Positions 2,048-12,478 of a stretch of DNA of 64,000 bases are shown here, piece by piece. A program made the translations under genes and the position numbers. Positions within the stretch are counted from its first letter, which is position 1. Each line of letters begins with the position of its first letter. Origin of the DNA: Thermoanaerobaculia bacterium (GTDB lineage: Bacteria > Acidobacteriota > Thermoanaerobaculia > Gp7-AA8); NCBI GenBank assembly GCA_017883205.1, contig JADGNZ010000012.1, forward strand, positions 72,151 through 136,150, read 5' to 3'. Below the pieces are notes generated by a model, which did no database searches, had not been told where the DNA came from, and saw only the letters and a list, made by a program, of their open reading frames with translations.

Positions 2048-2614
2048 ATGATCGCCCAACCACTCCTGCACAAATGTTCCAACCCGCCCCGTTCGACCTC
2101 CGAAGCCGCTCATGACCGCATCCGGCGCGGCGCCACGGTTCTGCTTCTGCTCGCTCTCGCAATCGCACCATGTGCCTTCGCTAAACCTCGCGAACGCCCG
2201 ACACAAGCGCCTGACTTCTCGCTACCAGCAAACAGCGGGACGATCTCGTTGCACGACTTTCGCGGCAAAGTCGTTCTTGTGGACTTCTGGGCTTCGTGGT
2301 GCGTGCCGTGCCGCCAGTCGTTTCCCTGGATGACGAGCATGATGAATCGTTACGGCGCGCAAGGTCTGGCCATCGTCGCAGTGAACCTCGACAAGCAGCG
2401 AGACGCGGCTAACAGGTTTCTCGAGACCTTTACGCCGCCTTTCCCTGTGGCCTTTGACCCGTCCGGAAAAACCGCGGAGGGATTTCGCGTCGAGGCGATG
2501 CCATCGAGCTTCCTCGTGAGCCGCACGGGCGAGATCATCCACATATACGCCGGATTCGATCCCGGCCACGCGCAAACCATCGAAAGTCAGATCCAGGAGG
2601 CATTATCCAAATGA
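2048..2614 (+). CDS. TlpA-like thioredoxin-fold protein (exported)
   Basis: A 188-residue protein with a rather long basic N-region, a hydrophobic signal or anchor segment at about 31-45, and an AhpC-TSA/TlpA fold. It has A-P-D-F-S-L-P, the redox site W-C-V-P-C (Cys85 and Cys88), V-V-L-V-D-F-W-A-S, and a cis-proline region around E-A-M-P-S-S-F-L. Such proteins reduce or protect thiols in the periplasm, including apocytochrome cysteines. It is the first gene of a four-gene operon: its stop overlaps the next start (ATGA at 2611). A dedicated role for this operon's Cys-containing lipoprotein (C-terminal G-C-G-C-N) is plausible but inferred. Confidence 0.9.
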   Translation: MIAQPLLHKCSNPPRSTSEAAHDRIRRGATVLLLLALAIAPCAFAKPRERPTQAPDFSLPANSGTISLHDFRGKVVLVDFWASWCVPCRQSFPWMTSMMNRYGAQGLAIVAVNLDKQRDAANRFLETFTPPFPVAFDPSGKTAEGFRVEAMPSSFLVSRTGEIIHIYAGFDPGHAQTIESQIQEALSK

Positions 2615-2838
2615 TCAGAATGAGACGGTATCTCTGGCGATTCATTGCAACGGCGGCGCTCCTGCTCGCCGCTGGATGCGCGACGGTTCAACCGTGGGAT
2701 CGCGATCTTCTCGCTGAAAAGAAAATGAGTCTGAATCCCTCCCCCATGCTGCAGGCGGTGGATGAGCACATCTACTTCAGCAAAGAAGCCTCGATGGGCG
2801 GAATGGACGCAGGAGGCGGCGGATGCGGTTGCAATTAG
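2611..2838 (+). CDS. DUF4266-type small lipoprotein with C-terminal CGC motif
   Basis: A 75-residue protein starting at the ATG that overlaps the TlpA stop. Residues 1-23 form a lipoprotein signal (L-L-L-A-A-G-C23), so it should be lipid-anchored. The mature part has V-Q-P-W-D-R-D-L-L-A and a helix, and ends in a Gly-rich tail closing with G-G-G-G-C-G-C-N. I recognise this as the DUF4266 family, whose function is unknown. The two tail cysteines could bind a metal, form a disulfide, or be substrates of the neighbouring TlpA protein (inference). It overlaps the next gene by 16 bp, so translation is tightly coupled. Confidence 0.8.
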   Translation: MIRMRRYLWRFIATAALLLAAGCATVQPWDRDLLAEKKMSLNPSPMLQAVDEHIYFSKEASMGGMDAGGGGCGCN

Positions 2839-4088
2839 AGCCCGGCAAGGCTCCCAAAGTCTCCGTGCGCGATGCCTTACACGGCGCGGCATTGGCGCTG
2901 CTCATGATTCCGGCCTCGGCACAAGCTCAGTCCGCCCCTTCGGACCGCATCGACGTCACGTCACTGCTGTACGGAGAACAGGGCCGCACCGAAGTGGTCG
3001 AGCCGGTCGTCCGCTTCACGCACCTGCTGCCGGACGGACAGTCGGTCTCCGCGCAACTGGCATTCGACGTCATCACCGGAGCCTCACCCAGCGGGGCGCT
3101 ACCCTCTGGAACCGTACAGACCCGTACCAGCGCGTCAGGCCATGTCATTACGTCAAAGGCCGGGCAGATCCCGGTCGCACCCTTCCACGATGAGCGCGTG
3201 GAGCTGGAGGGCACATGGCACAAGCCGTTAAACCGCCTGGTTAGCTCCGACCTCGGCTTTCACGTTTCGCGGGAGAAGGACTACCAATCGCTCGGCATCA
3301 ACGCAAAGGTCTCGACGGAGCTGATGCGCCGCCTTCTCACTGTCACTGTCGGCGGCGGAGTCAGTCACGACACCGTATTCCCAACCGGCGGCACACCAGC
3401 GGGATTATCCGACGGGACTGTCGTCAATCTCGGAAGCAATGCCAAGAACGTCACCAATGTATTGCTCGGAGCTTCCCGCATCGTCAGCCGTCAATGGCTC
3501 GTCGCCGTCAACGGCACCGAGACGCTCGAGCGCGGATATCTGACGGAGCCTTACAAAGTCATCAGCATCATGAGCCATGTAAACGGCACGCCCATTGGCG
3601 AACTGACCGACAAGCGCCCATCCACACGCAACCGGTCGGCCGTACTGCTGAGCTCCGTCTATCACCTTTCCGACGACGTGCTCTATACGTCGTATCGCTA
3701 TTATTGGGATACTTGGAGTATCCGTTCCCACACCATTGATCTGAAATACCGTCACGACTTGGGTGACGATTCCTACATTGAACCCCTCCTCCGCTATTAC
3801 CAGCAGAGCGCGGCCAGCTTCTACACAGTTGGATTCGTGGAAGGCGCAACGCTGCCGGACTTTGCGACGAGCGATTACCGGTTGGGTAGATTGCGAACGA
3901 TCACGGCCGGCGCTACGTATAGCTTCCGGCCGGACTTCGCGGCGGGCGAATTCACCGTACGCGGCCAGTACATGCGCCAATTCGGCAATAGCTCGCCGTC
4001 CAATGCGATCGGCATCCAGCGAAACTTTGATCTCTCCCCGCCAGTCAACATCGTGGCGGTCGTGCTCGGCTATTCATTCGATTATTGA
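2823..4088 (+). CDS. DUF3570-type outer-membrane beta-barrel with putative flavinylation motif
   Basis: A 421-residue exported protein with a signal at about 16-37 ending A-S-A-Q-A. Alternating hydrophobic/polar strands follow and the chain ends in an aromatic residue (G-Y-S-F-D-Y), as in outer-membrane barrels. Near the N-terminus, D82-V-I-T-G-A-S88 fits the D-x-x-[ST]-G-A-[TS] motif at which ApbE enzymes attach FMN to the last Thr/Ser in NqrC and RnfG. The FMN transferase gene follows with a 3-bp overlap, which supports Ser88 as a real flavin site; this is inferred, not shown. I recognise the family as DUF3570. The likely role is a flavin-bearing outer-membrane redox or electron-transfer protein. 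Confidence 0.8.
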   Translation: MRLQLEPGKAPKVSVRDALHGAALALLMIPASAQAQSAPSDRIDVTSLLYGEQGRTEVVEPVVRFTHLLPDGQSVSAQLAFDVITGASPSGALPSGTVQTRTSASGHVITSKAGQIPVAPFHDERVELEGTWHKPLNRLVSSDLGFHVSREKDYQSLGINAKVSTELMRRLLTVTVGGGVSHDTVFPTGGTPAGLSDGTVVNLGSNAKNVTNVLLGASRIVSRQWLVAVNGTETLERGYLTEPYKVISIMSHVNGTPIGELTDKRPSTRNRSAVLLSSVYHLSDDVLYTSYRYYWDTWSIRSHTIDLKYRHDLGDDSYIEPLLRYYQQSAASFYTVGFVEGATLPDFATSDYRLGRLRTITAGATYSFRPDFAAGEFTVRGQYMRQFGNSSPSNAIGIQRNFDLSPPVNIVAVVLGYSFDY

Positions 4089-5023
4089 GAATTCCCTTGC
4101 AGGCAACCGCTCTCAGTGCCGAACGTGAAGGAACGAACGACGCGCCGGGTCTCCGGCGCGTCGACGATTACTTCATAGGCGAGTTTCACGCCATGGCCAG
4201 CCCATGCACGCTGCTCATCGACACGGACGACCGCACAGAGGCTGCCAAGTGTCTCGCGATCGCGAGTGCGGAGGCGATCCGGATCGAACAGAAATTCAGC
4301 CGGTACCGCCGCGACAACATCGTTTACGAGATCAACCACGCCGAGGGGCGGCCCGTCGTCGTCGATCATGAGACTGCGCTGTTGATCAACTACGCGGCGA
4401 CCTGCTATGTGATGTCCGATGGCCTGTTCGACATCACCTCGGGGGTCCTGCGCCGGGTCTGGACGTTCGACGGAGGACGCAAGGTGCCGTCGCGCCAATC
4501 GGTGGAGGCGTGTCTGCGTCACGTAGGATGGCCGCGCGTCGAGTGGCAGAACCCCGTCCTGACCATCCCCGTCGGAATGGAGATCGACTTCGGCGGAATC
4601 GGAAAAGAGTACGCCGTCGACCGCGCCGCCGCGCTGATCGCATCGCGCACGCAAAGCTCGTTCGTCGTGAATTTCGGCGGCGATCTCTACACCGCGGGCT
4701 TGCGGCGAGATGGCCGGACATGGGCAATTGGCATCGACGATCCCGGCCGCACAGGAAAGTCCGCCCTCTACCGCCTCGATGTCCCGAAAGGCGGCATCGC
4801 CACGAGCGGCGACGCCCGCCGTTTCGTGCAATGGCGCGGAAAACGCCTCGGCCACATCCTCAACCCGAAAACCGGCTGGCCCGTCGACGGCGCCCCACGG
4901 TCGATCACCGTGTTCGGCCGCACGTGCATGGAAGCTGGAACCCTATCCACGCTCGCCTACCTGCAAGGAAGGGGCGCGAGACAGTTCCTCAAGCAACAAG
5001 GCGTTCAGTTCTGGATCGTGTGA
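4085..5023 (+). CDS. apbE: FAD:protein FMN transferase (ApbE family)
   Basis: A 312-residue enzyme that would transfer FMN from FAD to a Thr/Ser of a target protein. Family motifs are present in order: G-L-F-D-I-T-S-G (113-120), D-F-G-G-I-G-K-E-Y-A-V-D (168-179), V-N-F-G-G-D-L-Y (195-202), A-T-S-G-D-A-R-R-F (239-247) and H-I-L-N-P-K-T-G-W-P (257-266). The usual C-terminal A-D-A-L-A-T metal site reads E-A-G-T-L-S-T (283-289), so the Asp is missing. The start is a TTG overlapping the barrel gene's stop; no signal peptide is visible, although many family members are exported. The most likely substrate is the adjacent barrel. Confidence 0.9.
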   Translation: MRIPLQATALSAEREGTNDAPGLRRVDDYFIGEFHAMASPCTLLIDTDDRTEAAKCLAIASAEAIRIEQKFSRYRRDNIVYEINHAEGRPVVVDHETALLINYAATCYVMSDGLFDITSGVLRRVWTFDGGRKVPSRQSVEACLRHVGWPRVEWQNPVLTIPVGMEIDFGGIGKEYAVDRAAALIASRTQSSFVVNFGGDLYTAGLRRDGRTWAIGIDDPGRTGKSALYRLDVPKGGIATSGDARRFVQWRGKRLGHILNPKTGWPVDGAPRSITVFGRTCMEAGTLSTLAYLQGRGARQFLKQQGVQFWIV

Positions 5024-5069: not shown

Positions 5070-5438
5070 CTACTTCTCCTCAATCCCTGGCATGCCATCC
5101 TGGAAGGTTCGGCTGGTGAGACCAATTGCAAAGGCGAGCGCGCGATCGAGAAGGGCAATCCTTGCGGGGGACAGGGAGCCGATAAAATTCGTGAGAGAGG
5201 CCCTAGGTAGGCTCATGAGTTCGTCGCAGTGAATGCTGCTCTCGTGCTTGAGCCCCTCATCTGTGCCGACGTCGACTTGGGTGTGAATGCCATCGCGACG
5301 GGAGTAGACCGGAGCGCAGATCACGGACGAGAACGTGGAATCAAGGAGAAGTTGACGACTGACAGCAACAAAGACCCGCTGCTTCCGCGGATCTCGAGAT
5401 GTCGGGTGCTGGACAAGGTAGAGCTCTCCGCGCCTCAC
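5070..5438 (-). CDS. MazF/PemK-type endoribonuclease toxin
   Basis: A 122-residue protein starting M-R-R-G-E-L-Y-L-V, followed by [19 protein letters not shown] and the usual H-x-S-S-I-H-C-D-E-L pattern with an L-T-N-F-I-G-S-L-S tail. This is the PemK/MazF fold of ribosome-independent mRNA interferases. Its start overlaps the stop of the upstream antitoxin gene (ATGA at 5435-5438), the normal antitoxin-toxin order. It lies convergent to apbE, about 50 bp away, and separates the flavin operon from the cytochrome cluster. Confidence 0.85.
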
Positions 5439-5659
5439 AGTGGGACCTGATAGGAAAGCGCGTCTTCGGCCTCCGCGTTCAGCTCAGCCGCGTTTGCGTT
5501 GATGATCGCGAGATCTGCGGCGTCTTCATCGGGCCGGGGCCAGGCCAGGTAGGCGCGAACTGCTGCTGCAACGAGCTTGTCTCTGTCAGAGCGGTTCGGG
5601 GCGCGTTGGTCAAGTGCCTCGCTGATGTCGTCGGGTAGCGCTAGAAGCGTTTCGATCAT
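5435..5659 (-). CDS. Antitoxin of the MazF/PemK pair
   Basis: A 74-residue acidic protein directly upstream of and overlapping the toxin gene. The N-terminus ([15 protein letters not shown]) looks like a ribbon-helix-helix domain that would bind DNA and repress the pair. The C-terminus is rich in Ala, Asp and Glu, as expected for a disordered toxin-wrapping tail. Identity rests mainly on position and composition. Confidence 0.7.
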
Positions 5660-5720: not shown

Positions 5721-6239
5721 CTACTTCGCGTCGATCCCCTCGGTCGACCGCATCACCTTCTGCAGCTCTTCCTTCGTCAGCGCGTGGCCGCCCTTTGGTG
5801 CGCGGTATTCGTTGTTGTGGGAGACCATGAGGCGGTTGCTTTGGAAGTTGCCGTTGCGGGTGAGGGTGCCTTCGACGACGACGCCGATGTTTTCGCGGAA
5901 CATTTGCGGGGGGACGCCGTTCGAGGTTACGTGGACGATGCGGGCGGCGTCTTTGACGTCGAACTCGACGCCTGAGGTGCCGGGGCGGCGATGGATCGAG
6001 CCGGGGGCGACCATCCCGCCGAGGCGGATGGTGGCGCCGTAGGCTTTTTCGCCGTTGGCGTAGAGATCGGTGGGAGTCCAGTAGTAGACGAGGTTCTTGT
6101 TGATGCCGCCCATGGCGATGGCGATGAAGGCGCCGGCGGCGACGATCAGTGCGATCACCGTGTAGAGGCGGCCGCTGCGGCGGATGCTGGTCGTGGCTGA
6201 TGGGAAGGTGCGGTCGTCAGGCGTACGCATGGTGCTCAT
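5721..6239 (-). CDS. ccmE: Cytochrome c maturation heme chaperone CcmE
   Basis: The ATG at 6239 follows a CCGGAG ribosome-binding site; earlier in-frame starts up to 6302 are not needed. The 172-residue product has an N-terminal membrane anchor (Y-T-V-I-A-L-I-V-A-A-G-A-F), the OB-fold region with Y-Y-W-T-P-T-D-L, R-L-G-G-M-V and V-V-V-E-G-T-L, and the heme-binding signature H-N-N-E-Y (HxxxY), whose His attaches heme covalently before transfer to apocytochromes. It lies downstream of the multiheme cytochrome genes on the same strand and shares its pathway with ccmC and ccmD on the other side of the cluster. Confidence 0.93.
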   Translation of the reverse strand: MSTMRTPDDRTFPSATTSIRRSGRLYTVIALIVAAGAFIAIAMGGINKNLVYYWTPTDLYANGEKAYGATIRLGGMVAPGSIHRRPGTSGVEFDVKDAARIVHVTSNGVPPQMFRENIGVVVEGTLTRNGNFQSNRLMVSHNNEYRAPKGGHALTKEELQKVMRSTEGIDAK

Positions 6240-6302
6240 GATTGCTCCGGAGGACGGGGATGCGCGGCGGTGGAGGTCACGAGGCCGGGTGATGCGAGTC
6301 AC

Positions 6303-6470
6303 GTAGTGCAGACATTCTTGTCTGCTGCTGCCGGGCGTCCCTGCCCGGCAGGGGTTCGGGGCGGACGGTTGGGCCGATCAAAACCTGTCCTCGATCAATT
6401 CGAATTCAGCGCGACACACCACCGCCGGGCAGGGACGCCCGGCGGGAGCAGACAAGAATGTCTGCGCTAC
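6303..6470. repeat. 47-bp inverted repeat between the MtrB-like gene and ccmE
   Basis: Arms at 6303-6349 and 6424-6470 match at 44 of 47 positions when one is reverse-complemented, with a 74-bp spacer. Each arm contains the smaller palindromes GCAGACATTCTTGTCTGC and GCCGGGCG..CGCCCGGC. The right arm contains the stop codon of the MtrB-like gene (6467-6469). It is probably a mobile or dispersed palindromic element that may also act as a terminator. Confidence 0.85.
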
Positions 6471-8413
6471 GGGCGCCAGCGGAAGTAGAGGCCGTAGCGG
6501 GTGGCGTTGAAATCGCTGAAGAAGCCGGATGTCTCGTCGTATTTGTCGCGGTCCAATTCGGCAGCGAGGCCGGTCTTGTTCTTGAAATCCCAGGTTGCGC
6601 GGACTTTGTGGCGGTCGATGTTGAACGGGAGCGTGCCGCGGTTGTGGAAGCGCGAAAGGCTGGCGTCGATGGAGAACGGGCCCTTCAGGTAGCTCACGCC
6701 GCCTTCGCGGGCGTTGCCGTCTTCCGTCTGCACCGACTGTCCGATCGTGAAGTTCTGCGGGAAGCGGATGCTGATGTTGCTGTCGGCGCGGAACTGCGAC
6801 AGTGAGCCGCGGAAGTGCAGCGCTTCGATCGGCGACACTTCGATCTCGCCGCTGTACTGGCGAAGCTTGCTGTCGTAGCCGATGCCGGGATCGTCGTTCG
6901 ATTGATTGGTGCGCTCTGCGGTGACGCCCGCGCGGAACAGTTTCTTCGGTGTCATCCAACCGGCACGGACGCGATAGCGATTGCGGCCGCGGTAGTCGGT
7001 GCGGAAGATTGGTGCATCGGCACTATCGTGCTTCACTGCCGCACCGAGCATGAATCCGGAATGTGTGTATGCGCCGTTCAGGTCGACGGTGTGAATACGC
7101 CGGTCGAAGGTTCCGCTCTGGCTGCCCGGAACGACGATCTCAGACAAATCGGGCGACACCGTCACGTCCTGCTGCGACTCGCGAACTTCGCCGCGGAATG
7201 AGAAAGGTCCGACAGCGTGCGCGGAGATTCCGGCACTCAGGACTTCATCGGTGCGATCGATTCCGTTCGTAGCCTGGAGCACCGTGGCGATGTCTTTGCG
7301 ATCGAAACCGGAGAAGAGGATGCTCTGCAGGAAGACGTCATTGATCAATGCCGAGCCGTCCAGCTCGCGCTTTTCGCGCTGATAGCCGGCCAGGAGATCG
7401 ATGTGCGGCGTCAGATTGACTTCGGTCCGCAAGCCGCCGCGCCAAGTCTTGTTCTTCGCGGACGAGGTCGCGCTTTCCGTCAGGCCCGTGAAGAAACGGC
7501 TGATCGCGAACGATGTGAATGAACCTGCCGACGATTCGGCCTCGCTGCCGCTCGAGTCGGCGGAGAAACGGACATAGTTTCCGATCAGGCGAACGCGGTC
7601 CGTCATTTGTCCGGTGACGAAGAAGTTCGTGAACGGCGTATCGACGTGTGTCTGATCGGTGCGGGTGATCGAGGTGGCCGTAACCGGCTGCCCCAGGACG
7701 TTTCCGGGCTCGTTGCCGTTGCCTGCTCCGGACGCGAGCGACAGTGACTCCGTTCCGCGGAAGCTGCGCCAGCCCTGCGTGAGCTGGCCGGAGATCGATG
7801 CGAAGTGGAAGCTGGCACCGGCGCGGATCTCGCGATCGCGCTCGTGCAGATCCTGCGAGAGGAGGAACTCGTCCTGGCCGAGGTGATAGGTCGTCTGGCC
7901 GGGCCCGCGGTTGTCGTTGCTCGTGAATCCGATGAACGGAGCGATGGCGCGGTCGGGCAAGAGCTCGAGATCGACGTCGAACATTCGTCGCCGGCGATCT
8001 TCGGTGTGCTGGCCCGGAACGATGCCCTGGTCGAAGAGAGGATTGGCGAACGCGGGCAACGCACTGAACGCATCGGTGGATCGATAGCCGAGGCGGAGCT
8101 TGTACGCGTTGGCGCGCGAGGCTTCCATCCGTACCGATTGCGCGGGGCCGGAGCCGAGGTCGCTGACGTCGATGCGGAAGCGGTCGGTCAGCGAGTTGTG
8201 TCCCTCGAAGTCGGAGGTAGCCAGTGTGAAGTTGTGGATCAAAAGGCCGTCACGCTCATTGATCTGCGTGCGGTACATGCCGGTGTCGCCCTTGAGATCG
8301 AGCCAGCGATAGCCGATCTCGAGATCGAAGGGAACGACCTGGGCGTTGGCTGCGAAGGCAATCGCGAGGATCGGCAGTGAGAGCCAGTTCGCGACGAATC
8401 GTTTCATGTTCAT
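6467..8413 (-). CDS. MtrB/PioB-like outer-membrane beta-barrel of an electron conduit
   Basis: A 648-residue exported protein with a signal at about 1-24 (ending F-A-A-N-A). It has many amphipathic strands (F-D-L-E-I-G-Y-R-W, Y-K-L-R-L-G-Y-R-S, A-T-R-Y-G-L-Y-F-R-W) separated by polar loops, typical of a large barrel near the 650-700-residue size of MtrB. In Shewanella-type conduits MtrB is the pore that holds MtrA against the extracellular cytochrome. The gene lies 8 bp downstream of a decaheme cytochrome gene and in one run with a second, which supports that role. No cysteine is seen, so the N-terminal CxxC of some MtrB proteins is absent. The last residues lie inside a repeat arm. Confidence 0.8.
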   Translation of the reverse strand: MNMKRFVANWLSLPILAIAFAANAQVVPFDLEIGYRWLDLKGDTGMYRTQINERDGLLIHNFTLATSDFEGHNSLTDRFRIDVSDLGSGPAQSVRMEASRANAYKLRLGYRSTDAFSALPAFANPLFDQGIVPGQHTEDRRRRMFDVDLELLPDRAIAPFIGFTSNDNRGPGQTTYHLGQDEFLLSQDLHERDREIRAGASFHFASISGQLTQGWRSFRGTESLSLASGAGNGNEPGNVLGQPVTATSITRTDQTHVDTPFTNFFVTGQMTDRVRLIGNYVRFSADSSGSEAESSAGSFTSFAISRFFTGLTESATSSAKNKTWRGGLRTEVNLTPHIDLLAGYQREKRELDGSALINDVFLQSILFSGFDRKDIATVLQATNGIDRTDEVLSAGISAHAVGPFSFRGEVRESQQDVTVSPDLSEIVVPGSQSGTFDRRIHTVDLNGAYTHSGFMLGAAVKHDSADAPIFRTDYRGRNRYRVRAGWMTPKKLFRAGVTAERTNQSNDDPGIGYDSKLRQYSGEIEVSPIEALHFRGSLSQFRADSNISIRFPQNFTIGQSVQTEDGNAREGGVSYLKGPFSIDASLSRFHNRGTLPFNIDRHKVRATWDFKNKTGLAAELDRDKYDETSGFFSDFNATRYGLYFRWRP

Positions 8414-8421
8414 CGCTTCCC

Positions 8422-9396
8422 CTACTTGAGCAGTTGCGGATCGCGGTTGGAACCGTGGATCGCAACATGGCAGGTGGTGCAGTTCTGATAGCGAGCGAGA
8501 GTGAGGTTATGGAACGAGGGCGGCTGCGAGCCGAGCGTCGTGCCGCTGATGGGCGAGTGACACTCGAGACAGAGCTGCGACACGGTGGACCTCTTGAGCC
8601 GCTTCGGGTTGGACGAGCCGTGCGGCTCGTGACAGGTCATGCAATCACCGACGGCGATCGCGCCGTGCTGGAATACGAACGGTCCGCGCTTGTCGGCGTG
8701 GCATCCGAGGCATGGCAGCTCGCCGGCGGAGGTCGTCCGCAAGCTTGCGGCGCCCGGCCGGCCGTGGGGCTCGTGGCATGACGAACATTCCATCCCTCCC
8801 CTGCCGATGCGATGCGCGTACGGCTTGTTGCGGAAGGAGGAGACTTGCGTCATGTGGCAGGAGTCGCAGAGCGTGAGCTGTTTTTTCGCCAGCAGATGCG
8901 GTGCATGCGCCTCGGACGAGTGAATCGAGTGACAGGTGAGGCAGTTGACCACGGCCGAGTTGGCGTGCATTCCGGCGTGACGGGAGATGCGGTCGTTGCT
9001 GATGTCGTGACAGCTCATGCAGGTCTTGTTCGACCCGAGGAGCCCGGCCGGTTTGAAGATCTTTTCTTTGTCGCCGCCGCCTTCGATGTGCGCTTTGCCG
9101 TCGCCGTGGCACGACTCACAAAGCGCGTTAGGAACTTCACCCTTCTTGATCTGGCCGTGTGCGTGGGCGTTGGCGGCGAAGGCCTTGGCCTGATCGGCGT
9201 GGCAGTCGCTGCATGCGGGAAGTGCGGCTGGTTCCGCGGGCGTAGCGCTTGCTGCGGCGGGAGCGGTAGCGGGCGGAGTGGTTTGTGTAACAGGGGCGGC
9301 TGGCTCGGGCGGTTTCTCCGGAGGCTTCTCTTGCGCAAGCGCCGGGAGGCCCAGGAGCACTGCCAGCGCAAGTGCGCCAATCAGGTGAGATCTCAT
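8422..9396 (-). CDS. DmsE/MtrA-like periplasmic decaheme c-type cytochrome
   Basis: The ATG at 9396 begins a 324-residue protein with a clean signal peptide (1-22). A Pro/Ala-rich linker (23-60) follows, then ten CxxCH heme sites: CSDCH, CESCH, CMSCH, CLTCH, CDSCH, CSSCH, CLGCH, CMTCH, CLECH and CTTCH. Ten hemes in about 260 residues, with E-P-H-G after two of the sites, is the DmsE/MtrA pattern: a heme wire threading the outer-membrane barrel. It is followed at 8 bp by the MtrB-like gene and preceded by the OmcA/MtrC-like gene. The longer in-frame extension upstream of 9396 overlaps that gene and is rejected. Confidence 0.93.
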   Translation of the reverse strand: MRSHLIGALALAVLLGLPALAQEKPPEKPPEPAAPVTQTTPPATAPAAASATPAEPAALPACSDCHADQAKAFAANAHAHGQIKKGEVPNALCESCHGDGKAHIEGGGDKEKIFKPAGLLGSNKTCMSCHDISNDRISRHAGMHANSAVVNCLTCHSIHSSEAHAPHLLAKKQLTLCDSCHMTQVSSFRNKPYAHRIGRGGMECSSCHEPHGRPGAASLRTTSAGELPCLGCHADKRGPFVFQHGAIAVGDCMTCHEPHGSSNPKRLKRSTVSQLCLECHSPISGTTLGSQPPSFHNLTLARYQNCTTCHVAIHGSNRDPQLLK

Positions 9397-9455
9397 CGCT
9401 ATTTTCCTCAGAGCCGGGGGAGACGATGCCGTCTCCCCCGAGCCCAGGCGCTGGC

Positions 9456-11606
9456 TTACCGCGCGTGTACTTTGTCGACTGCCCAATCCTTGCCGGTGCC
9501 GTGGCATGTCGCGCACGCCTCGGCGCTGATGGTCGAACCAGGGAATACCGCGGTATTCAGGAACGCGTGCGCTGCTGCGTCCTTGTTGTCGTGGCAACCG
9601 AGGCAGGCTGCGGTGGCCGGGCCCTGCGGAGTGAAGTAATCGCGTAGTGTGGTGACCGAGGCGATGTTGGTCTGCTGCAGCGGAAGTGTGTAGGCAGCCG
9701 TTGAGGCGTGGCACTTCGCGCAGTTGCGCGTGTCGCCGGGGAAACGAACGTCATTGAAGTTGTTCGTGGAGCCCCCGAAGCCGATGATCGTGTAGTCCTG
9801 CGTTAGATTCTCGCCCGTGTGAATGCGATGGATCATGCGCTGGAAGGAGATCGACTCCGGTGCTCCGAGGCTGGCCGGACGGAGCGACTCGTCACCCGCG
9901 GTGGGGTTGTGGCAGATCACGCACTCTTCGATGTTGCGGCGCTGTCCGCCGTGCAGTTCGAGCGTGTCGTGGCACTGGTTGCACTGCGCGAGCGTTACGA
10001 CTGTCCGCCGCGGAGTGACCGCACCGGTGACGGCAACGTACTTGATCGGATTGAGCGTGGATTCCTGGATGGCGATGTCGGCCTTGCCGTCGCCGCGCTT
10101 GAGCGAGACGTTGCGGCGAAGGTCGGCGCTGATCGTCCAGGTGCCGGACGCATTCGCGGGAAGCGCGGCTGTGAACGTATAGGTCGTCGTGCCCGCGGCG
10201 GCGCTGAAGACGCCCTTGGTGATTGCGTTCTCGCGGAAGTTCGGTCCGTAGTTGGACGTCGGTCCGGCCAGAATCGGGGAGAAGGTCGCGAGCTTGGTGC
10301 CGTCGACTGCGGTGCCGTCGCCGTTTGTGATCTTGAAGACGGCCGTCGGCGACTTGCCCGGGGTCATGTTCGTGACGCTGACGACGGTGACGTTGAGGCC
10401 CTGGAGCTGTTTCGATTTCTCAGGAACGGTGTGCGCGCCCTTGATCGAGGCGTCGAATTCGAGTCCGTCCGGCTGGTGGCAGGAAGCGCAGGCATTGTCG
10501 TCGGCCTGCGGGCCGGCCGGATGGTTCGCGCCAGTGACCCAGTCGACGTCGTCGTGGCAGGATCCGCAGGCGGCGCGGCTCGGGTACGTGTACCAGACAT
10601 TCGACCCGGCGCCTTTGTTCGTGGCGACCGTGCCTTCATGGCAGTTCGCGCAATTGCGAATGTCCTGCGGAAAGACAACCGTCGAGTAGTCCTGGAGCGA
10701 TTGCGCATTTCCGATGATCTGGTACGGCGTCCCTGCGAGCACGCTGGGCAGGTTCTTGCCATCATGGATCTTGTGCGCCATCACCTTCATGTCGACCGTG
10801 TTGCCGGTGTCCGGATCAACCGTCTGCGGCTGATGGCAGAGGACGCAAAGCTTGAGGTCCAGGCGGGATCCGCCGTGGGCCGCGAGTTTGGACTGCGTGT
10901 CGTGGCAGTTGAGGCAAGTCGACGAGTCGCGCATCTTGTCCCAGGTGTTCGCCGCAACCACTGCTGCGCCGTCGGGCCGGAAGTCGTACTCGAGGTTGAA
11001 GAAGTAGTTCTTCTGAAGGGCGGGATCAATCCCGACGACCGCGGTCAGGTTGCGAGACGCGTAAATGCCGAGGGTGTGCGTCTTCGTCTGATCGAAACCG
11101 GCGGGCAGCACCGTTGTCGAATTGAACTTCGCGTGACCGGTCTCCAGATCGGTGAAGGTTCCGGCAAGAGTCCCGGCCTGCGTCGCCGATACGCCCGGGT
11201 GGGGGCTGTTGGCCGGCGTGGTCTGAACGCGCGTGCCGTACGAGGTGTAATGACGTGTGGCCGGGTCGTACCAGGCAAGCACGAAGCTCGGCGAGATCGG
11301 ACCTGGGGTCGTCTTGCCCAGCCGGTCGAGCGGCTGGTCGAGCGAGTCGGTCATGCTGAAGTCGATGACCGGCTTCCGATCTGTGCCGATCGTGATCGAG
11401 TTGACGATGATCTTCAGACCCGGGCGAATGAAGGCGACGTCGCTTGCGGTCGCATAAGCCTCGACCTGGCTCGGGGAGAAGCGGGGTTTCGCCGGCGTGG
11501 GCGCGGGCGCCGCAGCCCTTGTACGGGTATCGGCTGACAGTAGCGGAAGGGCAACCACCGCTGCCGTTGCAATCATCAAAATGGTGCGCCTGATCAGGTT
11601 GTTCAT
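9456..11606 (-). CDS. OmcA/MtrC-family decaheme c-type cytochrome (outer surface)
   Basis: The ATG at 11606 follows an excellent ribosome-binding site (TTGGAGGACCGA). The 716-residue product has a signal peptide (about 1-32), an N-terminal beta domain, five CxxCH sites (CLNCH, CVLCH, CANCH, CGSCH, CASCH), a second beta domain (about residues 330-480), and five more (CNQCH, CVICH, CAKCH, CLGCH, CATCH). The alternating split-beta/pentaheme layout and ten hemes are those of OmcA/MtrC surface cytochromes that reduce minerals or other extracellular acceptors. Unlike MtrC it has no lipobox cysteine after the signal, so its anchoring is unclear. It is the first gene of the cytochrome-barrel operon. 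Confidence 0.92.
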   Translation of the reverse strand: MNNLIRRTILMIATAAVVALPLLSADTRTRAAAPAPTPAKPRFSPSQVEAYATASDVAFIRPGLKIIVNSITIGTDRKPVIDFSMTDSLDQPLDRLGKTTPGPISPSFVLAWYDPATRHYTSYGTRVQTTPANSPHPGVSATQAGTLAGTFTDLETGHAKFNSTTVLPAGFDQTKTHTLGIYASRNLTAVVGIDPALQKNYFFNLEYDFRPDGAAVVAANTWDKMRDSSTCLNCHDTQSKLAAHGGSRLDLKLCVLCHQPQTVDPDTGNTVDMKVMAHKIHDGKNLPSVLAGTPYQIIGNAQSLQDYSTVVFPQDIRNCANCHEGTVATNKGAGSNVWYTYPSRAACGSCHDDVDWVTGANHPAGPQADDNACASCHQPDGLEFDASIKGAHTVPEKSKQLQGLNVTVVSVTNMTPGKSPTAVFKITNGDGTAVDGTKLATFSPILAGPTSNYGPNFRENAITKGVFSAAAGTTTYTFTAALPANASGTWTISADLRRNVSLKRGDGKADIAIQESTLNPIKYVAVTGAVTPRRTVVTLAQCNQCHDTLELHGGQRRNIEECVICHNPTAGDESLRPASLGAPESISFQRMIHRIHTGENLTQDYTIIGFGGSTNNFNDVRFPGDTRNCAKCHASTAAYTLPLQQTNIASVTTLRDYFTPQGPATAACLGCHDNKDAAAHAFLNTAVFPGSTISAEACATCHGTGKDWAVDKVHAR

Positions 11607-11647
11607 TCGGTCCTCCAAACGACCGTTACATTCATGTGAGACATCAC

Positions 11648-11687
11648 GCGCATACGGTAGGGTCAGTGGGAACGATCGCGTATGCGC
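11648..11687. promoter_or_regulatory. Inverted repeat in the leader of the OmcA/MtrC-like gene
   Basis: GCGCATACG (11648-11656) and CGTATGCGC (11679-11687) form a perfect 9-bp inverted repeat with a 22-bp spacer, 42 bp upstream of the leftward start. It could be a leader hairpin or a dimeric operator; the sequence does not decide. Confidence 0.45.
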
Positions 11688-11703
11688 CGCCGCACCGCTG
11701 TCA

Positions 11704-11719
11704 GGTGACACGTGTCACC
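11704..11719. promoter_or_regulatory. Perfect 16-bp palindrome in the cytochrome/ccmC divergent promoter
   Basis: GGTGACACGTGTCACC is a perfect palindrome midway between the divergent starts of the decaheme operon (11606) and ccmC (11777). Its half-sites (GTGAC/GTCAC) resemble operators of CRP/FNR-type regulators, but the spacing differs from the classic form. A shared operator that co-regulates cytochrome synthesis and maturation is a reasonable inference. Confidence 0.55.
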
Positions 11720-11776
11720 GCGTTTCGTGACCGCAGCCGCTGAGTGCCGGACACCGGACCCGTATCGTGCATCGTC

Positions 11777-12478
11777 ATGAAACGAGCAACGATCGGCTTG
11801 CCTATCATCTTCTTTTTTGCCTCCGCAGTCTGCTTATTTGCTGGAATTCTGGACGGCCTGCTGGTTGCCCCTGCCGAGCAACACATGGGCCAGGTGCAGC
11901 GAATCATGTACATCCACGTGCCGACCGCGTGGACAGCCATGCTCGTTCTGACCTGGGCCTTCCTCTGCGCGGTGATGTTTCTCTTCCGCGCAAGCTGGCG
12001 CTGGGACAGCAGGCTCGAGGCGGCCCTCGAAGTTTCCGTCCTCCTCTGCTTCCTTCTCTGTGTTCAGGGATCGATCTGGGCCAAACCGACCTGGGGCGTG
12101 TGGTGGGATTGGGATCCGCGGCTAACAACGACAGCAGTTCTGCTGATGGCCTTCGTCGGAATCGTGGCGCTACGGCACTTCCTCGCCGACGCGGCACAAC
12201 GTGCCACATGGTCCGCGGTGGCGACGATCATCGCCTACGTCGATGTGCCGATCGTCTACTTCTCGGTGAAGTGGTGGAATTCGCTCCACCAGCAGCCGTC
12301 GAGCGCGTCGACGATCTCGCGCGATTTCCTCATCCCGCTGATGCTCAATTTCGCAGGGATGCTCTTCCTCGTCATCGGCCTGATGACGATCCGCGGCCGT
12401 ACGGCGCTACTCCGTCTCGAAGATGAGATGCTGCCCCCGCCACTGCCAGCCGCAATTCCGACGGAGGTGATGGCATGA
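11777..12478 (+). CDS. ccmC: Heme export/handling protein CcmC
   Basis: The ATG at 11777 (M-K-R-A-T-I-G) gives a 233-residue protein with six hydrophobic segments. It has the tryptophan-rich WWD signature W-G-V-W-W-D-W-D-P-R-L-T (about residue 103) and conserved His residues in Y-I-H-V-P and S-L-H-Q-Q-P. CcmC loads heme onto CcmE in the periplasm in system I maturation. Its stop overlaps the ccmD start (ATGA). Divergent to the decaheme operon across about 170 bp of palindrome-rich DNA, it is well placed for co-regulation. The ccmA, ccmB, ccmF, ccmG and ccmH genes are not in the window. Confidence 0.94.
   Translation: MKRATIGLPIIFFFASAVCLFAGILDGLLVAPAEQHMGQVQRIMYIHVPTAWTAMLVLTWAFLCAVMFLFRASWRWDSRLEAALEVSVLLCFLLCVQGSIWAKPTWGVWWDWDPRLTTTAVLLMAFVGIVALRHFLADAAQRATWSAVATIIAYVDVPIVYFSVKWWNSLHQQPSSASTISRDFLIPLMLNFAGMLFLVIGLMTIRGRTALLRLEDEMLPPPLPAAIPTEVMA

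Follow-up and report, generated by a model that had tools for sequence, protein, structure and literature searches.

The window, a stretch of 64,000 nucleotides from a Thermoanaerobaculia bacterium, encodes a predicted outer-membrane barrel of the DUF3570 family together with an FMN transferase of the ApbE family that has no recognisable signal peptide, and the flavin expected on this barrel may well be attached before the protein is exported. In the proposed mechanism, four genes would form one translationally coupled redox module, in which DUF3570—a predicted 16-stranded outer-membrane barrel—would carry one covalent FMN on Ser88, attached by its dedicated ApbE. Attachment would take place in the cytosol on the unfolded pre-protein, followed by Sec export and insertion into the outer membrane. 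A TlpA-like thiol protein and a CXC lipoprotein would relay electrons between a periplasmic DsbD-type donor and the flavin; the flavin would in turn give electrons to a cell-surface partner or accept them from it. Taken as a whole, this account—coupled module, FMN barrel, cytosolic loading, outward-facing flavin and thiol relay—appears probable. Sequence and model together establish a single candidate site, a predicted barrel fold and the absence of a recognisable signal peptide from ApbE. The locus is a further member of a system known since 2021, and its twist concerns the place at which the flavin would be attached.

Four open reading frames occupy positions 2048-5023 on the same strand, in the order TlpA-like, DUF4266, DUF3570, ApbE, with overlapping ends: 4 nt between TlpA-like and DUF4266 genes (2611-2614), 16 nt between DUF4266 and DUF3570 (2823-2838), and 4 nt between DUF3570 and ApbE (4085-4088), where the TTG start of ApbE overlaps the stop codon of DUF3570. 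Scans for promoters and terminators found none. All four products score well over their Pfam cut-offs. The genes and residues concerned are the following.

2048..2614, + strand: TlpA/ResA-like thioredoxin-fold protein, 188 aa (Pfam AhpC-TSA/Redoxin/Thioredoxin; 80 bits for AhpC-TSA/Redoxin)
2300..2311, + strand: CVPC active-site pair (C85, C88) of the TlpA-like protein (sequence reading)
2611..2838, + strand: DUF4266 lipoprotein, 75 aa, with lipobox LAAGC and C-terminal GGGGCGCN (PF14086, 70.5 bits)
2823..4088, + strand: DUF3570 outer-membrane barrel, 421 aa (PF12094, 283.5 bits against a cut-off of 25; AlphaFold model; Foldseek)
2824..2832, + strand: C-G-C tail (C72, C74) of the DUF4266 protein (sequence reading)
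3066..3086, + strand: putative flavinylation motif DVITGAS, residues 82-88 of DUF3570 (conservation; AlphaFold model)
4085..5023, + strand: ApbE FMN transferase, 312 aa, TTG start (PF02424, 219.8 bits)
4937..4939, + strand: Gly285 of ApbE, replacing the catalytic-triad Asp (Asp301 of Listeria FmnB; alignment to PDB 7esa)

An earlier note on this DNA had described the four genes, and the reading frames lie where it placed them, with Pfam agreeing for each; its redox TlpA protein and Cys-tailed lipoprotein of the same operon are borne out by the CVPC pair, the CGCN tail and the overlapping genes. The TlpA-like protein begins with a hydrophobic signal and is likely to be a periplasmic thiol-disulfide oxidoreductase, its scores against the NCBIfam ResA, DsbE and TlpA models all falling under the model cut-offs. 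The DUF4266 lipoprotein ends in CGCN; a CXC is present in 121 of 124 relatives and has been pointed out in PMC8238504 too, and C72 and C74 are a possible redox pair. DUF3570 carries a Sec-type signal peptide (about residues 1-36). The nearest named relatives, Thermoanaerobaculia MAGs of the Acidobacteriota with 71-73% identity, have the same operon.

The motif DVITGAS, which the note had placed at barrel residues 82-88, is encoded at 3066-3086, and D82, A87 and S88 are invariant columns in an alignment of 24 homologues from several phyla. A larger set of 133 DUF3570 proteins was assembled from the Acidobacteriota, the class of a Novimethylophilus relative (which we take to be Gammaproteobacteria in GTDB), the phylum of an Ignavibacteria relative (presumably Bacteroidota in GTDB) and matches at related loci; its rows are not independent, yet several phyla are covered. 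Of these 133 proteins, 122 retain D, [ST] and [ST] in the corresponding alignment columns; the Asp is replaced by Ser in five rows and by Glu in four. The pattern Dxx[ST]GA[ST] occurs in 58% of the 133, as against 0.6% after residue shuffling. A chance match as the source of DVITGAS is ruled out by the alignment invariance and this shuffling control. Ser88 is the residue expected to bear the FMN. Threonine is preferred at the last position of the ApbE motif (PMC12052999), and the serine found there in the window counts against FMN attachment.

A full-text literature search returned a single paper naming both DUF3570 and DUF4266 (PMC8238504). In that work, Meheust et al. (2021) demonstrated that DUF3570 of Chlorobium luteolum is flavinylated by its own ApbE in E. 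coli, and that the serines of both [ST]GA[ST] motifs must be changed for flavinylation to be lost. By analogy with this homologue, covalent attachment of FMN to Ser88 by the window ApbE is very likely. Clusters of ApbE, DUF3570, a thioredoxin-like protein and DUF4266 were reported from hundreds of genomes (PMC8238504). The core of what the note had claimed—a flavinylated barrel with a dedicated ApbE and FMN on Ser88—is therefore upheld by conservation, gene content and the homologue experiments, whereas its novelty is lost to the 2021 publication; the note had also overlooked the absence of a signal peptide from ApbE, the lost triad Asp and the question of one site versus two. That the flavin acts as an electron carrier is something we infer for this locus, just as the literature does for the family.

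PMC8238504 reports two [ST]GA[ST] motifs for ApbE-associated DUF3570 members. The window protein, like its closest relatives, has only one full motif, and a loop some 30 residues long comes after it. This was not taken to exclude the protein from the family, whose members are not defined by how many sites they have and most often show one strict motif (94 of 133 proteins); relative to the published two-site description, the window DUF3570 represents a form with one site. Two sites within the same loop occur in betaproteobacterial and Ignavibacteria DUF3570 proteins (e.g., DAVSNAS...VVTTAS). The C. luteolum system shares with the window all four families, the [ST]GA[ST] site and an adjoining signal-less ApbE with Gly for the triad Asp. 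However, the probable C. luteolum DUF3570 (G768) has, by alignment, two SGAS sites in loops 1-2 and 3-4, whereas in the window protein loop 3-4, which is longer, holds the only site; moreover, a DsbD-like gene adjoins ApbE in C. luteolum, in contrast to the window, where no linked DsbD is present. The target motif D-x-x-[ST]-G-A-[ST] is also that of NqrC and RnfG. Unlike these, the window DUF3570 is a barrel rather than a small soluble domain and stands outside any Nqr/Rnf context; membership of an Nqr/Rnf-like group was rejected, FMN_bind (PF04205) being matched neither in the DUF3570 protein nor in the genome.

An AlphaFold model of the window DUF3570, built with 24 sequences, is a barrel (pLDDT 79.6, pTM 0.80) in which strand 3 ends at Ser88 and a long, low-confidence loop 3-4 begins. 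The model of a betaproteobacterial DUF3570 is a clean 16-strand barrel (pLDDT 85.8, pTM 0.83) whose loop 3-4 holds both sites. A Foldseek search with the window model returned only generic, assorted outer-membrane barrels. Loop 3-4 lies opposite both termini in the model topology, and in outer-membrane barrels the side opposite both termini is the outer face. By these general rules, the flavin is reasonably likely to face outward; it could instead fold into the barrel lumen.

The partner enzyme departs from canonical extracytosolic ApbE/Ftp/FmnB proteins. It shares with them the PF02424 fold and the Ser and His of the proposed triad, whereas signal peptide and lipobox are missing and the triad Asp is a Gly. 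A scan of the N-terminus found no run of hydrophobic, uncharged residues ahead of the domain. The proposed triad of FmnB is Ser257-His273-Asp301 (PMC12052999). Ser241, His257 and Gly285 of the window enzyme align with residues 237, 253 and 281 of the 7esa chain, and since these are offset from the published triad by a constant 20, Gly285 occupies the position of Asp301; Ser and His are kept, and the triad as a whole is incomplete.

These two features extend far beyond the window. Signal peptides of 100 DUF3570-linked ApbEs were judged by a hydrophobicity scan, with a few labels set by eye and one row (L198) re-labelled by hand. On this basis, a missing signal peptide goes with Gly at the triad position in 64 enzymes, with Glu in 14 and with Asp in two; the remaining 20 bear a signal (16 with Asp, four with Val). 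The 64 form one clade (SH-aLRT 99) with Gly throughout, which contains the window ApbE and the probable C. luteolum ApbE—equally signal-less and with the same Gly. The 14 Glu enzymes, from betaproteobacteria, make up a clade of their own that is nested within signal-bearing ApbEs; in two genomes of that group (G399, G403), modules of both kinds occur. A rule that signal-less enzymes always carry Gly was rejected on account of these Glu enzymes and of two survey ApbEs with Asp from the Ignavibacteria phylum. The notion that betaproteobacterial loci are without ApbE was likewise discarded, the gene sitting just beyond the flanks first examined. The best hydrophobic uncharged 11-mer before the domain reaches at most 1.75 in the Gly class as against at least 2.07 in signal-bearing enzymes (L198 apart), and many Gly-class ApbEs have just 12-30 residues of open frame upstream of the catalytic domain. 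Their DUF3570 partners have a hydrophobic leader in all 61 cases scored.

Because ApbE lacks a signal peptide while the barrel has one, and because the ApbE gene overlaps the barrel gene, the cytosol is the most likely place of attachment, and loading before export is rather favoured. Such an order is stated neither in PMC8238504 nor in PMC12052999. Cytosolic ApbEs are named only with non-exported substrates, such as the Klebsiella pneumoniae enzyme, which acts with a soluble fumarate reductase (PMC12052999). The window ApbE resembles that enzyme in having no signal peptide and differs from it in its substrate, which is cytosolic in K. pneumoniae; the only recognised substrate in the window is exported to the outer membrane. 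This genome, 99.7% complete, has one DUF3570 and one ApbE, and FMN_bind and DUF2271 were searched for in it and not found, which leaves the window ApbE with a single recognised substrate. Loading before export would require covalently bound FMN to cross the Sec channel, a step for which we know of no precedent and which counts against this order.

The same flavin barrel could also arise if ApbE acted in the periplasm, having passed through an unrecognised export route or being translated from an unrecognised start. Nearly all well-studied ApbEs are indeed periplasmic (PMC12052999), and 20 of the 100 DUF3570-linked enzymes bear a signal. The 12-30 residues preceding the domain in many signal-less members are, however, too few for a signal peptide, and the signal-less trait is fixed in the 64-member clade and arose separately in the 14-member betaproteobacterial one; a periplasmic site of action is therefore unlikely. 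Gly285 in place of the triad Asp raises the different prospect that transferase activity has been lost, so that DUF3570 would carry no covalent flavin and its motif would be kept for another reason. The nine replacements of the motif Asp among the 133 proteins (Ser in five, Glu in four) fit a site that tolerates some change, and if the C. luteolum enzyme were not known to work, loss of the Asp301 equivalent would point to a dead transferase. The activity of that Gly-class member in E. coli implies that Gly does not abolish activity in the class; in addition, Ser241 and His257 are kept, and site and ApbE are conserved together in the relatives of the window. A dead transferase is thus highly improbable, and an active cytosolic ApbE remains the preferred reading.

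For the electron donor of the flavin, a relay through the TlpA-like and DUF4266 thiols stands at roughly even chances, the link resting on gene neighbourhood. PMC8238504 proposes that electrons come from DsbD via thiols and lists about 220 DUF3570 clusters with DsbD and 316 without; 25 clusters contain a gene for the iron transporter VIT1. The single DsbD_TM gene of the present genome is on another contig than the operon, which counts against a thiol relay to the flavin.

Close to the flavin module, on the opposite strand, positions 5721-12478 hold an Mtr-like cluster with CcmE, a CcmC-like gene, a decahaem protein (10 CXXCH), a 751-aa multihaem protein and a cysteine-free, barrel-like protein of 648 aa. 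This gene content would fit a module belonging to a nearby Mtr-type porin-cytochrome machinery, with electrons moving between multihaem cytochromes and a surface flavin. However, CcmE, the barrel-like gene and the decahaem gene are absent beside the module in the loci of the closest relatives (L001, L002, L094) and in the other loci searched. A conserved link was rejected, the adjacency being confined to the window among the loci searched, and participation in such a machinery is very unlikely. Between module and CcmE lie a PemK/MazF-like toxin gene and a small upstream ORF (5070-5659), likely a toxin-antitoxin pair. Upstream of the module, a stretch without a convincing gene contains a tandem repeat (324-801; period 148, 3.2 copies, 84% matches).

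DUF3570 is patchily distributed: matches occur in 34 of the 396 genomes from the window's phylum, in 71 of 274 from the Novimethylophilus class and in 71 of 247 from the Ignavibacteria phylum. Chlorobia-type genomes such as G890, G894 and G834 have several matches each (up to nine match stretches), in places as neighbours on one contig (G894:C45). Among the Acidobacteriota, 30 of the 31 genomes whose DUF3570 match exceeds the cut-off also encode ApbE, as against 28 of 47 without DUF3570, counts that leave out G143 (match below cut-off) and G385 (short-fragment match). The comparison proposed in the note, with the motif expected to be missing wherever apbE is missing, thus has hardly any genomes to draw on. 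The sole exception, G088, keeps the flavin motif, beside a haem motif; no ApbE match was found in this genome, where the contig ends about 2 kb past the barrel gene.

This barrel belongs to one of four Acidobacteriota loci (L103—that of G088—and L105, L106, L107) whose DUF3570 reads DAI[ST]AASDSC[AI]RCH in loop 3-4, a flavin site with a c-type haem motif immediately after it. The CxxCH occupies the position of the second flavin site of other members, and haem attachment to DUF3570 proteins of this DSC[AI]RCH type is a prediction from that motif. Each of the four loci has an additional, apparently exported protein with a mono-haem motif beside the module. In two other DUF3570 proteins (L050, L102), a His/Asp-rich insert (HDHDHDHD...DDDDD), possibly a metal-binding stretch, lies between two flavin-type motifs. 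Since a c-type haem motif replaces the second flavin site in some Acidobacteriota, the loop site may be a general cofactor socket. The broader proposal—a widespread cytosolic clade of Gly-type ApbEs that loads barrels with FMN ahead of Sec, at such a socket—is slightly favoured.

Signal-less partner ApbEs and the Gly at the triad position are features of which no mention was found in PMC8238504. If the proposed order of events is true, the Sec and outer-membrane insertion machineries would handle a protein to which a bulky redox cofactor is already bound, and most DUF3570 partners would escape surveys restricted to signal-bearing ApbEs. The single-site, double-site and haem-bearing forms of DUF3570 constitute a natural series for probing the function of the barrel.
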